From the IMG/VR virus record IMGVR_UViG_3300032325_000065, positions 1 through 25,406 of that record: a DNA stretch of 25,406 nt. One strand, given 5' to 3'. Shown here one piece after another: positions 6,401-22,400 of the stretch (the stretch's first letter is position 1; every line of letters starts with the position of its first letter). The position numbers and the translations under genes are program-made. The notes under the pieces are model-generated. The model searched no databases. It saw nothing but the letters and a program-made list of their open reading frames with translations, and had not been told where the DNA came from. The DNA comes from a virus.

Positions 6401-7871
6401 TTAAGCAGTACCTGTCAAAATACCTTGTAATGAGGCATTTGAACAAGTTAAATTTCCAGCCCAACCATACAACTTCACAATCTTTCTGTTACTTCGGCTT
6501 TCGCCTACTGACCATTTTCATGGCGAAGCAACCTCTTCGGATCACTTTCTAGGACTTCAAATTACAAGTTATATCCTAGTTCAGACTATCGCTTACCTTT
6601 TCAGGCCCATCTCACTTAGTCGTTCAGGCTGTATTTAAACTTGCCCCTTGTCGTCTGCTTCCAGACTTCCAAGTCAATCAGAGTTGGTTTATAGACACCA
6701 TTAATGCAATGTAGGTTTAGCGTCTTGGTTAATTGACTGACGTTCTCCACCAATCGGAACAAAGTTACGTTCTTTATGTGGTCTGAAGAAGATGTAATTA
6801 GTATTCAAGAGATACATATACAATGCATTTTCTTGTGAACCAATACCACCACCGAGAACCACGTCAGCAGACATACCACCACCGTAGAACTTGAGTGATG
6901 CAAATCCTGCTGCACCTTCTTCTACGCCTGCGATACGCTGAATTGCTTGTAACGATGCAACATAACGCTGGTACAAAGTGTTACCTGCAATGATTAAATC
7001 AGTCTTATCTGTACCACGAACAGACTTGATAGCAGCTTCAGTCATAGCAGCTTGGATTAACAAAGATGAGTTAGCACCTGTTGTTGATTGGTTTCTCCAG
7101 AATGTCCAGTTAGCACGATTAATGCCACCGTACGTTCCTGACGAAGGACTTGTGCTAATACAAGCCGACAATCCAGTTATGTTCTTACCCCCATTACCTG
7201 TACCGTCACCATATAAATCGGTGGAGATACGATTTAACAGACGTGCTTCAGAAACTTGCATACGACCATCTAACAAGTCGATGATTGCTTCTTTAGAACT
7301 GTTCTGCAACATTTCCAAACCACTCATTGTTACGCTATCTGCGTACTGAGTAATAGAGAACTGAGCAGCACTAATAGGACTATCAGGAGTGATGTCTAAG
7401 ACCTCATATCCTGAATAGCTGTTAGCGTTGTTTGTTGCATTCTGTTACTTCAGCTTTCGCTTACTGACCATTTCTGGCGATTCAAGTTCTTCGACTCAAA
7501 CTCTAGGACTTCTGCTAACTTTAGTTATATCCTAGTTCAGACTATCGCACCACCTTTTCAGGTGTTTTCTCGCTTAGTCGTTCAGGCTGTATTTAAACTT
7601 GCCCCTTGTTGTCCACTACTGGAGTTCCAAGTCAATCAGAGAAAATTATTCAATCTACGTTTTAATGTAGAAGGCCACCAGCAATTAATGGATCGTTATA
7701 CATAATCTCTTCCAAGATGACCGAGCCACCTGAAAAAGTGCGTACATTTCCTTTAGAGTTTAATCTCTGTAGAACTGCATTGTTTTGTGTTAAGTTATCA
7801 GCCAATACACCACTACGACTTTGGATCGTTGTAGCGATAATATCGGTGATTGCTGAGTTTGCAAATGCCAT
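6401..7871 (-). CDS. Major capsid protein, three exons interrupted by two group I introns
   Basis: Predicted join on the minus strand is exon 1 7871-7688 (184 nt), exon 2 7437-6719 (719 nt) and exon 3 6481-6401 (81 nt), together 984 nt and a 327-aa protein. The N-terminus MAFANSAITDIIATTIQSRS, the region SGLEMLQNSSKEAIIDLLDG, YGDGTGNGGKNITGL, the DLIIAGNTLYQRYV block and the C-terminus VKLYGWAGNLTCSNASLQG are characteristic of podovirus HK97-fold capsid proteins. Joining gives ...MYNDP-S-TNNANSYSGYEV... and ...SINQDA-IVKLYGWAGN..., both continuous and natural for the family. Without splicing, exon 1 would end in intron 1 after 69 residues, and exon 2 would end in intron 2 after NQDAKPTLH. RBS AAGGAAATATCATG. 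It sits directly after the scaffold gene, as expected. Confidence 0.93.
6482..6718 (-). ncRNA. Group I intron 2 in the capsid gene (237 nt, no ORF)
   Basis: Sense strand is minus. P1: exon AGACGCU (6725-6719) pairs with guide GGUGUCU (6699-6693), 7 bp, with the required U-G at the splice site (6719/6699). P3: CCAACTC (6687-6681) with GAGATGG (6613-6607), one A-A mismatch. P5: GTCTG-GAAG-CAGAC (6653-6666). P7: GACTA (6621-6617) with TAGTC (6588-6584), within the R (GAACGACTAAG) and S (GCGATAGTCTGAAC) signatures of group IA-type introns. P8: CCT-GAAA-AGG. P9: CTAGGA/TCCTAG. Near the 3' end lies a GGC-GAAA-GCC hairpin. The intron ends AACAGAAAG with terminal G at 6482. P10 candidate: guide-loop AAU with exon AUU. 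Splicing out restores the capsid frame exactly. No P2 hairpin, no endonuclease. Confidence 0.92.
7438..7687 (-). ncRNA. Group I intron 1 in the capsid gene (250 nt, no ORF)
   Basis: Sense strand is minus. P1: exon CCAU (7691-7688) pairs with guide GUGG (7678-7675), with U-G at the splice site (7688/7678). P2: TCTAC/GTAGA (7671-7667, 7658-7654), absent from intron 2. P3: TTTTCTC (7645-7639) with GAGAAAA (7571-7565), 7 perfect bp. P4 candidate ACTTG/CAAGT (7632-7628, 7601-7597). P5: TCCA-GTAG-TGGA (7612-7623). P7: GACTA (7579-7575) with TAGTC (7544-7540). P8: CACCT-GAAA-AGGTG (7551-7564). P9: CTAGGA/TCCTAG (7508-7503 region and 7535-7530). Near the 3' end AGC-GAAA-GCT (7452-7461). It ends AACAGAATG, terminal G at 7438. 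P10 candidate: guide-loop UUG with exon CAA. Contains no ORF. Confidence 0.92.
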
Positions 7872-15476: not shown

Positions 15477-17195
15477 CTACTCTATTTTTTTAAATTCTTC
15501 TTCTAATTGCTCTTTACGACTTAAACCTAATATTGGCACACCTGCAAACATTTCTTTACCAAATTTTTGTATAAGTGATTTACGCTCTTCTGGGTTAGCA
15601 TACTTATAAATATCTTTAATGCCATTTTTTTCTAATACAGACATTGTTTTTGCAGTTGTTTCTTTTGGAACTATTGCACCTGCAAATTCATTAAGTTGAA
15701 CTGCTCTTTTGGGTTTAATTTCAAAATATCCAGTAGGTGCATCTTTTAATTCTTTGGTGTAAGCAGATATTCTATCTTTTAGTTCTTGTGGAACTTTTTG
15801 AGCTATTTCTCTGCTATATTCATATTTATTTGCTGTTCCTAAAGCTAATTCTTCTAAAAACGCTCTTACATCAATTCTACTGTTATTTTCTTTTAAAAAT
15901 TTAGATAAATCTTCAGTTAAAGATTCATGTGTCGAATTTAAATTATCTTTTATTTGTTGGCTTTCTGTTTCAGAAACTATTTTTGATCTATTTTTTAGGA
16001 CATCTGATTGATTTTTTAATTTTGGTATTAATTTTGCTCTTAAACTACCAGCCGTAAACAAATTTCCATTACCTTCAGCACCAGCATTTTTAGATGACAT
16101 TCTTTTAACTATATTTTCTAAAGTAGCTGGTTCATACAATGCTCTACCAGTTGTATTTGAACTGCCTTTATATAACAAACTTTTAACTGATCCCCCAACA
16201 TCTTGAGCTTCCTTTTTCAATTTATCAATGTAATCAATTTGCCAATCATAAAATGGAGATTGTTTTTCACTAGGAAGTTTATCAAAAGCATTTCTTGCTG
16301 CCATCCTAAATTCTGATGGCGTATCGTAATTTTTAGAATCAGGTAAAAGACCTTTTTCTCTGAGATATTGCATTTTTAACAAAACAGTATCTTGTAAATT
16401 AGAATCTAAATTTTGTGTATATCCTGAAACAGCACTTAAAGTATCTTTATGATTTTTTAATTCACCATAATGTTCTGCAAGTTTATTAGTTATAAAATCA
16501 TCTGCAATTCTGTCTGTTTGAGTGACTATATGTGGTTTTCTTGCAGTATAAGCATCAGTTGAATAAATAGGATTTTGTCTAGATGGAGTTGCCATATTTT
16601 TATTGCCAATAAGCGTAATATCACCAAATTCTTCTAATGGGTTTTTTACTTTACTGATTGCCAATGATGGTACTGGTAGCCCACCTAATTTTTCTACAGC
16701 ATATAATTTTTCAGGCGTTAGATTGTGCTGCACTATCATTTCTTCGCCTGCTTTAACATTAGGCACAAATGCTGATGCATTTTTATTTGTAACAAAAGGA
16801 ACTACACTAGGCATCAATCCTTGTTGTTGCATCATCTTTTCTGTTCTGTTCCATGCTTCTTCACCAATTGCTCTAGCTACTGGTTTAGCAATAGGTTTAG
16901 TTAATGCAGCAGTACCACCTAATATACCTGTGGCTAATCCAGCCTCTTCGCCTGATTCATAACCTTTGTTGTATTGAATATTGTTAGGATCGAGTACGCC
17001 TATGTCAGATGGTGGTTTTGCAGGTACACCAGAATAACCTGCACTAAAACCACTTAATTGTTGATTAGGAGTATAGCCAAAAGATTTTAAAAATGCTTGA
17101 GGATCAGTTAAATTACGAACAACAGTCGTAGGAAAATCCACAGCAGATTGTAATTTTTGACGCAACATATTGGCTAATGTTTGATTATCAGCCAT
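15477..17195 (-). CDS. Large protein with polyvalent-protein-like segment, function unknown
   Basis: A 572-aa protein. Residues 15-110 are a flexible N-terminus with Ala/Gly-rich helices (GLATGILGGTAALTKPIAKP). Residues 150-215 hold the distinctive segment VQHNLTPEKLYAVEKLGGLP, VPSLAISKVKNPLEEFGDIT, LIGNKNMATPSRQNPIYSTD, which I recognise from large multi-domain polyvalent proteins of phages and conjugative elements, where it accompanies effector or DNA-manipulating domains. The remainder (220-572) is charged alpha-helix and shows no catalytic motif I can name. Codon use is clearly more A/T-rich (many AAA, AAT, TTT) than in terL or portal, suggesting separate acquisition. It lies between small early-late genes and TerS, with no strong RBS. 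A co-injected protein is a possible role. Confidence 0.75.
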   Translation of the reverse strand: MADNQTLANMLRQKLQSAVDFPTTVVRNLTDPQAFLKSFGYTPNQQLSGFSAGYSGVPAKPPSDIGVLDPNNIQYNKGYESGEEAGLATGILGGTAALTKPIAKPVARAIGEEAWNRTEKMMQQQGLMPSVVPFVTNKNASAFVPNVKAGEEMIVQHNLTPEKLYAVEKLGGLPVPSLAISKVKNPLEEFGDITLIGNKNMATPSRQNPIYSTDAYTARKPHIVTQTDRIADDFITNKLAEHYGELKNHKDTLSAVSGYTQNLDSNLQDTVLLKMQYLREKGLLPDSKNYDTPSEFRMAARNAFDKLPSEKQSPFYDWQIDYIDKLKKEAQDVGGSVKSLLYKGSSNTTGRALYEPATLENIVKRMSSKNAGAEGNGNLFTAGSLRAKLIPKLKNQSDVLKNRSKIVSETESQQIKDNLNSTHESLTEDLSKFLKENNSRIDVRAFLEELALGTANKYEYSREIAQKVPQELKDRISAYTKELKDAPTGYFEIKPKRAVQLNEFAGAIVPKETTAKTMSVLEKNGIKDIYKYANPEERKSLIQKFGKEMFAGVPILGLSRKEQLEEEFKKIE

Positions 17196-20940: not shown

Positions 20941-21921
20941 TTACTTGCTACGCTTGAGCGAACTTGCTGACAAAGATTCTTCAATATATTCTTTTGGAAC
21001 GTCAAAGCCATCTTTTTTGAGTTGTGTTAAAGACTTCAAAGTATACAAGCGTTGATTACCCTCAAAGTGTGCAATAACTTCCGTTTCATTACGAATCTTC
21101 GACATCTTGCGACCTTGAGATAACTCCCATCCCTGAATAAACGCACCTGTACTTAGTAAGTCTTTAGCCGATTCCCTGACTGAGTTGATCCAGCCTTCTA
21201 ACATTTCTGCCGTATCTAATAGCTCTGGCAAATCAGACATATCTGTTTGCAGGTTAAAGTCTGCTTGTGCAGTCTTGACAGCTAAGTCCTTCATGCTAGG
21301 GCAAACCGTCTTTGCAAGACAATAGCGGCACGCTTCGTAACTTGGAGTAACCTCAACAAATGGATCTAAGGCATCTTCGACCAACTGTTGCAACTCATTT
21401 ATAAATGCTTCAAGATCTGCTACAGAATATTGTGCAGGTTCTTGTATGGCATAGTGAGGACACCATATATGAGCCTTAACAGTTACATTCGGTCTGCCTG
21501 CCCAAAGCCAAGCACCTAACGCATAGCATTTTAATTGTGGACTTGTTACATTCACTTTGCCTCGACCACTTTTTAAATCAACAACGTGCAATTCATCATC
21601 TTTAAAAATAATGGCATCGGCTGTCCCACCCAACAGTTCGTGTACTTGCTGTAATGGCCCTGTTAGGTTAATTTCAATATGCTGTTGACCTCCAATGGCT
21701 TTAACATAAGCCACATAATCAGTCGCCCATTGCAAGGCTTCTGTATCGTCTGTTTTAACCTCTATGCCATGATAAAGTTTCTCTGCCATTGCATGACAAT
21801 CTGTTCCTCTTTGAGCATGAACATTCGTTTTATTAGGCATACCCAATTCCATTTGGTATGATCCTTTGCATAGCATGACTCGCTGTAAGCGACTTGCAGA
21901 AATTGGTGCATGAATACTCAT
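20941..21921 (-). CDS. RecB/Cas4-like PD-(D/E)XK nuclease (DUF2800 type)
   Basis: A 326-aa protein. N-terminal SASRLQRVMLCKGSYQME holds the first Cys; RGTDCHAMAEKLYHG has the conserved His; LLGGTADAIIFKDDELHVVD followed by DLKSGRGKVNV gives the catalytic G-T-A-D...D-x-K core; SPQLKCYALGAWLWAG is the Gln-Tyr helix. EACRYCLAKTVCPSM supplies three C-terminal Cys, with the N-terminal one making a Cas4-like iron-sulphur cluster plausible. In the family, such proteins act as DNA exonucleases in recombination or replication. It starts at ATG overlapping the HNH stop (TAATG), and its RBS (AGGAGTAATTAATG) lies inside the HNH gene end. Last gene before the terminator. Confidence 0.9.
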   Translation of the reverse strand: MSIHAPISASRLQRVMLCKGSYQMELGMPNKTNVHAQRGTDCHAMAEKLYHGIEVKTDDTEALQWATDYVAYVKAIGGQQHIEINLTGPLQQVHELLGGTADAIIFKDDELHVVDLKSGRGKVNVTSPQLKCYALGAWLWAGRPNVTVKAHIWCPHYAIQEPAQYSVADLEAFINELQQLVEDALDPFVEVTPSYEACRYCLAKTVCPSMKDLAVKTAQADFNLQTDMSDLPELLDTAEMLEGWINSVRESAKDLLSTGAFIQGWELSQGRKMSKIRNETEVIAHFEGNQRLYTLKSLTQLKKDGFDVPKEYIEESLSASSLKRSK

Positions 21922-22400
21922 TAATTACTCCTAGCGAATTGGTTGTGGTATTGTTGACGCATTTTTTCTGCTTCAAGAATTGCATCATTAATATTTTTAA
22001 ACAAAGATGAGGTATGTAATTTTTTATTTATCCTAAATTCAACTCTCCATCTATTTCGATTTTTAATCCAAATAACATTTTTATAACCACTTAAATTATT
22101 TTTTTGTAAAAATCTATTAAATCCATTTTGACTTCTTGTGGCAGGTCTTAAATTTTCAATTTTATTGTTTAATTTATTTCCATCTTTATGATCAACAAAT
22201 TCAGGCATTTTGCCATAAAACATTAAATAAATTATTCGATGGATTCTAAATTGTTTGTTATTTATTTGAATATAAAAATAACCACATTTGCTAAATGATC
22301 CTGCCTTATTACCAATTTTTTGTCCACCTTTAGTTATCTTCCAAAATAACTCGCCATCTCGATACTCAAATAAATTCTTCACTAATTCTTGTGTAATCAT
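21921..22400 (-). CDS. Free-standing HNH homing endonuclease with AP2-like domain
   Basis: A 159-aa protein. Residues 1-50 are YRDGELFWKITKGGQKIGNK and YFYIQINNKQFRIHRIIYLM; residues 55-95 the HNH core FVDHKDGNKLNNKIENLRPA (HKDGN...NN...NLR) with TRSQN; residues 100-150 the AP2-like DNA-binding part SGYKNVIWIKNRNRWRVEF, NINDAILEAEKMRQQYHNQF. The codons are much more A/T-rich than those of its neighbours (long AAA/AAT/TTT runs), a mark of recent acquisition. It is inserted neatly between the regulator (ATGA overlap) and nuclease (TAATG), so it does not disrupt either. It cleaves at or near a homing site, probably in intron-less or HNH-less relatives. Confidence 0.93.
   Translation of the reverse strand: MITQELVKNLFEYRDGELFWKITKGGQKIGNKAGSFSKCGYFYIQINNKQFRIHRIIYLMFYGKMPEFVDHKDGNKLNNKIENLRPATRSQNGFNRFLQKNNLSGYKNVIWIKNRNRWRVEFRINKKLHTSSLFKNINDAILEAEKMRQQYHNQFARSN

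Follow-up and report, generated by a model that had tools for sequence, protein, structure and literature searches.

We analyzed the 25,406-base virus record IMGVR_UViG_3300032325_000065 (hereafter "the window," meaning the whole stretch), and found that its major capsid gene, spanning 7871-6401 on the minus strand, is broken by two inserts. Almost certainly, both are group I introns from a single family and interrupt the gene of a tailed phage whose head protein is of the Mx8 type; they are predicted to splice out and give a protein of 327 amino acids (aa), encode no recognisable endonuclease and spread by recombination. Exon 1 (7688-7871, 184 nucleotides [nt]) begins with the ATG at 7871 and ends in ...CCAT; it is followed by intron 1 (7438-7687, 250 nt), exon 2 (6719-7437, 719 nt), intron 2 (6482-6718, 237 nt) and exon 3 (6401-6481, 81 nt including the stop codon), all on the minus strand. 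Excising 7687-7438 and 6718-6482 leaves a single 327-aa capsid frame, whose predicted spliced junctions are AACGATCCAT joined to CAACAAAC and CAAGACGCT joined to ATTGTG. A previous interpretation made without database searches (the sequence-only reading) had placed both inserts and the 327-aa product correctly to the base, and had taken a 69-aa open reading frame (ORF; 7871-7662, the N terminus) and a 208-aa ORF (7327-6701, the body) as parts of one gene. Both ORFs indeed match the major head protein phrog_9953, to which exons 1 and 2 are assigned. Among annotated phage relatives, Myxococcus phage Mx8 shows 52% identity to the 208-aa body, and a PDB search with the capsid protein gave a single weak match; the capsid identity of the protein is not in doubt.

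To place the inserts, we scanned viral contigs for relatives of the 208-aa body, kept the 80 best among 589 that were confirmed, and aligned their genes with copies that lack an interruption, allowing for long inserts. Among 78 full-length homologous genes, 53 are free of inserts and 25 carry one to three, a fraction that gives no estimate of prevalence because the 80 are the nearest relatives. The inserts fall at four sites, at coding-sequence bases 158 (A), 184 (B), 214 (C) and 903 (D); intron 1 of the window lies at site B and intron 2 at site D, and one homologue (L037) has three introns, at A, C and D. Every insert in this type of capsid gene is preceded by T and has G as its last base, and all full-length genes have a stop-free reading frame after splicing. 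The sequence-only reading had staked itself on homologues not translating the interruptions, and none of the 78 full-length genes contains the window's insert stretches as protein. The natural joins that it had proposed, NDP-S-TNN and NQDA-IVKLYGW, agree at both junctions with uninterrupted homologues; in one of these (L048), junction 1 reads NDP-N-TNN and junction 2 is identical to that of the window. Site C holds a second kind of group I intron, of 280-282 nt (about 5513-5795 in L106, and at other loci), which scores 41.8 bits in homologues against the Rfam group I model RF00028 (gathering score 50). Site C introns were rejected as members of the window's intron family, since R1, our model of that family, gives no match to them.

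The introns at sites A, B and D share one core. In a MAFFT alignment, which was not adjusted to the structure, 96.7% of the cells of the group I structure are paired across 26 introns from these sites, compared with 36-46% in the slid control; for 63 diverse members drawn from every host gene, the value is 96.9%, compared with 37-50%. Within these 63, P3, a pseudoknot that crosses P7, is 98.2% paired with compensatory changes in all seven of its pairs, P8 covaries in four of four pairs, P6 is 99.6% paired with compensatory changes, P4 is 100% paired and hardly varies, and P7 is invariant and paired in every member (63/63). RNAalifold recovers the nested helices, including P4-P6, unaided. Such core pairing is far beyond chance, and it bears out the core that had been drawn from the sequence (P1 with U-G, P3, P7, P8 with a GAAA loop, P9 and a terminal G). 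In intron 1, on the minus strand, P3 is formed by UUUUCUC (5′ strand, 7639-7645) and GAGAAAA (3′ strand, 7565-7571), P7 by GACUA (5′ strand, 7575-7579) and UAGUC (3′ strand, 7540-7544), and P9 by the hairpin CUAGGA...UCCUAG (7503-7535). The counterparts in intron 2, on the same strand, are CCAACUC (6681-6687) and GAGAUGG (6607-6613, with one A.A mismatch in the window copy) for P3, GACUA (6617-6621) and UAGUC (6584-6588) for P7, and CUAGGA...UCCUAG (6549-6579) for P9. The invariant AACGACUA/UAGUCU at P7 places a bulged C next to a G-C pair, which, judged by sequence only, makes P7 the putative guanosine site. Assignment to subgroup IA was rejected, as only three bases separate the 5′ strand of P7 from the 3′ strand of P3 and there is no P7.1/P7.2.

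Each window intron also contains an internal guide complementary to its own 5′ exon. The guide of intron 1, GUGG (7675-7678, minus strand), pairs with exon CCAU (7691-7688), and that of intron 2, GGUGUC (6694-6699, minus strand), with exon GACGCU (6724-6719), both with U.G at the splice site. Over 21 sites in two capsid genes, guides form a mean of 4.19 Watson-Crick pairs with their own 5′ exon and 1.65 with the exons of other sites, a value for own pairing that none of 2000 permutations reached, and the last exon base is a U opposite a guide G throughout. At site B, the silent third base of an exon codon covaries with the guide, CCG occurring with GCGG and CCA with GUGG. The anatomy of the introns is thus established, and the claim of two related, ORF-less group I introns holds, supported by intron-less homologues, exact junctions, P3 covariation, and both match and covariation between guide and exon.

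Model R1 detects exactly two introns in the window, both members of its training set (129.1 bits at 7528-7654 for intron 1; 130.6 bits at 6572-6696 for intron 2), and its matches outside training come from MW202674, CRP-118 and Paenibacillus loci. The collection assembled by intron sequence comprises at least 144 loci, and its host-gene proportions are indicative only. The matches listed give 175 introns at 144 loci, all located through the intron sequence and nothing else: 87 are at a P22-coat-like capsid gene, 24 are at the capsid family of the window and the remaining 64 are in other places. For twenty of these 64, the flanking ORFs include, as candidate hosts, a third family of head proteins, portal, tape measure, major tail protein and the large subunit of ribonucleotide reductase. 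The P22-coat-like gene, which is unrelated to that of the window, has about 17 intron sites among the matches listed, sites having been merged manually when the references were of unequal length, and as many as four introns (in L035); three or four family introns in a single such gene were seen in L035, L012, L014, L022, L122, L149, L215 and L222. In the annotated genomes, Podoviridae sp. ctn9Y15 (MW202674; L119 3987-4205) has a split P22 coat gene (R1, 120.8 bits) and Roseobacter phage CRP-118 (OR420741; L120 3972-4373) a split ribonucleotide reductase (96.6 bits). Both GenBank records annotate the gene halves as separate genes with no intron, and MW202674 has a "hypothetical protein" annotated inside the intron. 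A family intron also stands beside an anaerobic ribonucleotide reductase (NRDD) gene on a Clostridiaceae contig (L116 1944-3303), a genome that in addition holds two RF00028 introns above cut-off. The sequence-only reading had called its find unusual: two introns of one family in one capsid gene are confirmed, whereas within this family introns were found mainly in capsid genes, where it is common for one gene to have several. Tentatively, and with slightly less than even confidence, we see here a tiny ORF-less family, mostly invisible to Rfam and specialised on phage virion genes, with about 21 sites in two capsid genes, endonuclease-free mobility and up to four splicing events per capsid messenger RNA.

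We then considered how the introns spread. Mapped on the gene tree of the exon body, intron presence requires at least 9, 5, 6 and 8 changes for sites A, B, C and D, respectively. At site D, where the signal of co-conversion is clearest, GACGCT^ATTGTGAAGTTG is common to 10 of 10 intron-plus alleles, and the listed intron-minus contexts are mostly GATGCA^ATCGTGAAGCTG. In the 30 bases upstream of this site, likeness is 0.908 for plus-plus pairs versus 0.762 for plus-minus pairs, and downstream it is 0.968 versus 0.839; upstream, no excess remains at 60-30 bases from the site, and downstream some of it lasts to 60 bases. Such flanking likeness is what co-conversion leaves, although it may in part be sequence that the guide requires of its target. 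Because intron presence is scattered on the gene tree and flanking exon bases are co-inherited, these comparisons indicate that the family has probably spread by recombination. The two window introns share a long identical P4′-P7 stretch; mutual homogenisation as a rule was rejected, since other two-intron phages lack one.

Based on these results, we propose that each intron would fold in the primary transcript into its P3-P8 core, its internal guide pairing with the last exon bases (P1) to set a U.G at the 5′ site. Guanosine bound at P7 would attack the 5′ site, and the freed exon U would then attack behind the terminal G, joining the exons into the 327-aa frame. Between phages, the introns would travel by recombination, with a few tens of flanking exon bases copied along; the enzyme starting this recombination would have to act in trans, and introns would often be gained and lost.

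Several observations weigh against this interpretation. RF00028 gave no match at either window intron (E<=10), although the sequence-only reading had counted on this model for 6401-7871, and at the Rfam gathering cut-off nothing was found across the window and ten loci. The miss appears to be caused by model coverage, because one member of the same family does match RF00028: of the four in the L035 contig, one reaches 26.6 bits (E=8e-7), and since R1 matches there too, the family belongs with group I, most tested members lying beyond the reach of the Rfam model. The co-conversion signal is weak at site A. No recognisable endonuclease was found in the introns of the window-type capsid gene, where the longest stop-to-stop frames measure 49-86 codons and overlap the ribozyme core; an intron encoding a homing endonuclease was accordingly rejected for the 250- and 237-nt inserts, which have no such gene inside. 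The window has a free-standing HNH endonuclease gene (21921-22400, minus strand; phrog_99, Pfam HNH_3). As a driver of the introns it gained no support, showing no association with their presence: HNH relatives lie near the capsid gene at 2 of 53 intron-minus loci and, apart from the window, at no intron-plus locus, these loci being short. Finally, we infer catalysis and splicing of the window introns from established group I chemistry, splicing being predicted and not observed. In Paenibacillus loci (L118 1201-3177 and L032 5538-7514), two family introns lie on either side of a gene with Vsr/DUF559-like domains, upstream of a tail tape-measure-like gene; such genes are a possible intron driver there.

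The lack of an endonuclease in the introns would also fit another route, in which sites are reached mainly by guide-directed reverse splicing and the shared flanks are simply the target sequence that the guide needs. In agreement with this, one family occupies about 20 different sites in two capsid genes, and the bases next to the sites match the guide. Nevertheless, the excess likeness of intron-plus alleles extends to 3′ exon bases outside P1, over a zone of about 30 nt, for which target need alone is insufficient, and we consider this route unlikely to be the main one, albeit a serious competitor to recombination. Both may operate, reverse splicing for new sites and recombination for spread at one site.

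Functional introns face a much weaker challenge from the idea that they are decayed, or that the phage is defective or the assembly wrong, so that the gene yields no functional capsid protein. The record is an uncultured contig, P3 of intron 2 has its one mismatch, and splicing is a prediction; yet the exons are all open and conserved once spliced, independent contigs carry the same introns at the same sites, and compensatory change keeps the core pairs, as decay would not, making this explanation very improbable. Bridging at the protein or translation level, by an intein, by ribosomal bypass of the kind that spans a short gap in phage T4 gene 60, or by separate subunits, can practically be dismissed: inteins are excluded because both inserts carry in-frame stops, met at once where the 69-aa and 208-aa ORFs end, the inserts hold a group I core that covaries and a guide that matches the exon, and the 26 residues past intron 2 have no in-register start of their own.

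Elsewhere in the window, all on the minus strand, a gene adjoining the terminase genes encodes a protein with a PBECR5 (Barnase/EndoU/ColicinE5-like nuclease) domain (15477-17195), and a virion protein with a C-terminal Peptidase_S74 chaperone domain adjoins an acyl-CoA N-acyltransferase gene (1193-2245 and 2247-2681).

Phage capsid genes interrupted by group I introns are already known. In the cluster J mycobacteriophage LittleE, an 819-bp major-capsid intron with an HNH endonuclease frame is removed at the RNA level, as established by reverse transcription PCR and protein sequencing (PMC3706429), and the same paper cites a capsid-gene intron in Tuc2009. As in LittleE, a major capsid gene is split here, with U ending the exon and G the intron; unlike its single HNH-encoding intron, the present genes each carry between two and four introns that are about 215-280 nt long and free of ORFs. 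Each of the Jug phages, which are huge gut phages, has some 18 small group I introns, averaging about 206 nt, in essential genes including terL and nrdD; these were found with existing group I models, and many were confirmed as spliced by metatranscriptome reads (PMC12363816). Many small introns in essential phage genes are common to both systems, but capsid genes are not named as the main host in the passages considered from that paper. The introns of CRP-118 and ctn9Y15 are of the same family as the window's, in other host genes. The T4 td intron (group IA according to its record's note) resembles them in its group I core, with the S strand UAUAGUCUG; in contrast, it encodes I-TevI and is unmatched by R1, and the window introns leave no room for P7.1/P7.2 between P7 and P3. 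We found no report of the window's intron family in the open-access literature.

What is surprising is how many sites a capsid gene can have and the blindness of Rfam to the family. A recent group I intron catalogue took the Rfam model as its seed (PMC11835236) and may under-count this family. Major capsid genes serve as standard phage markers, and when family introns interrupt them, automatic annotation gives the impression of a split or absent gene, as in the two GenBank records. A high-output virion gene with up to four ribozymes offers a natural system for studying how ORF-less introns move and whether phage yield is limited by splicing.
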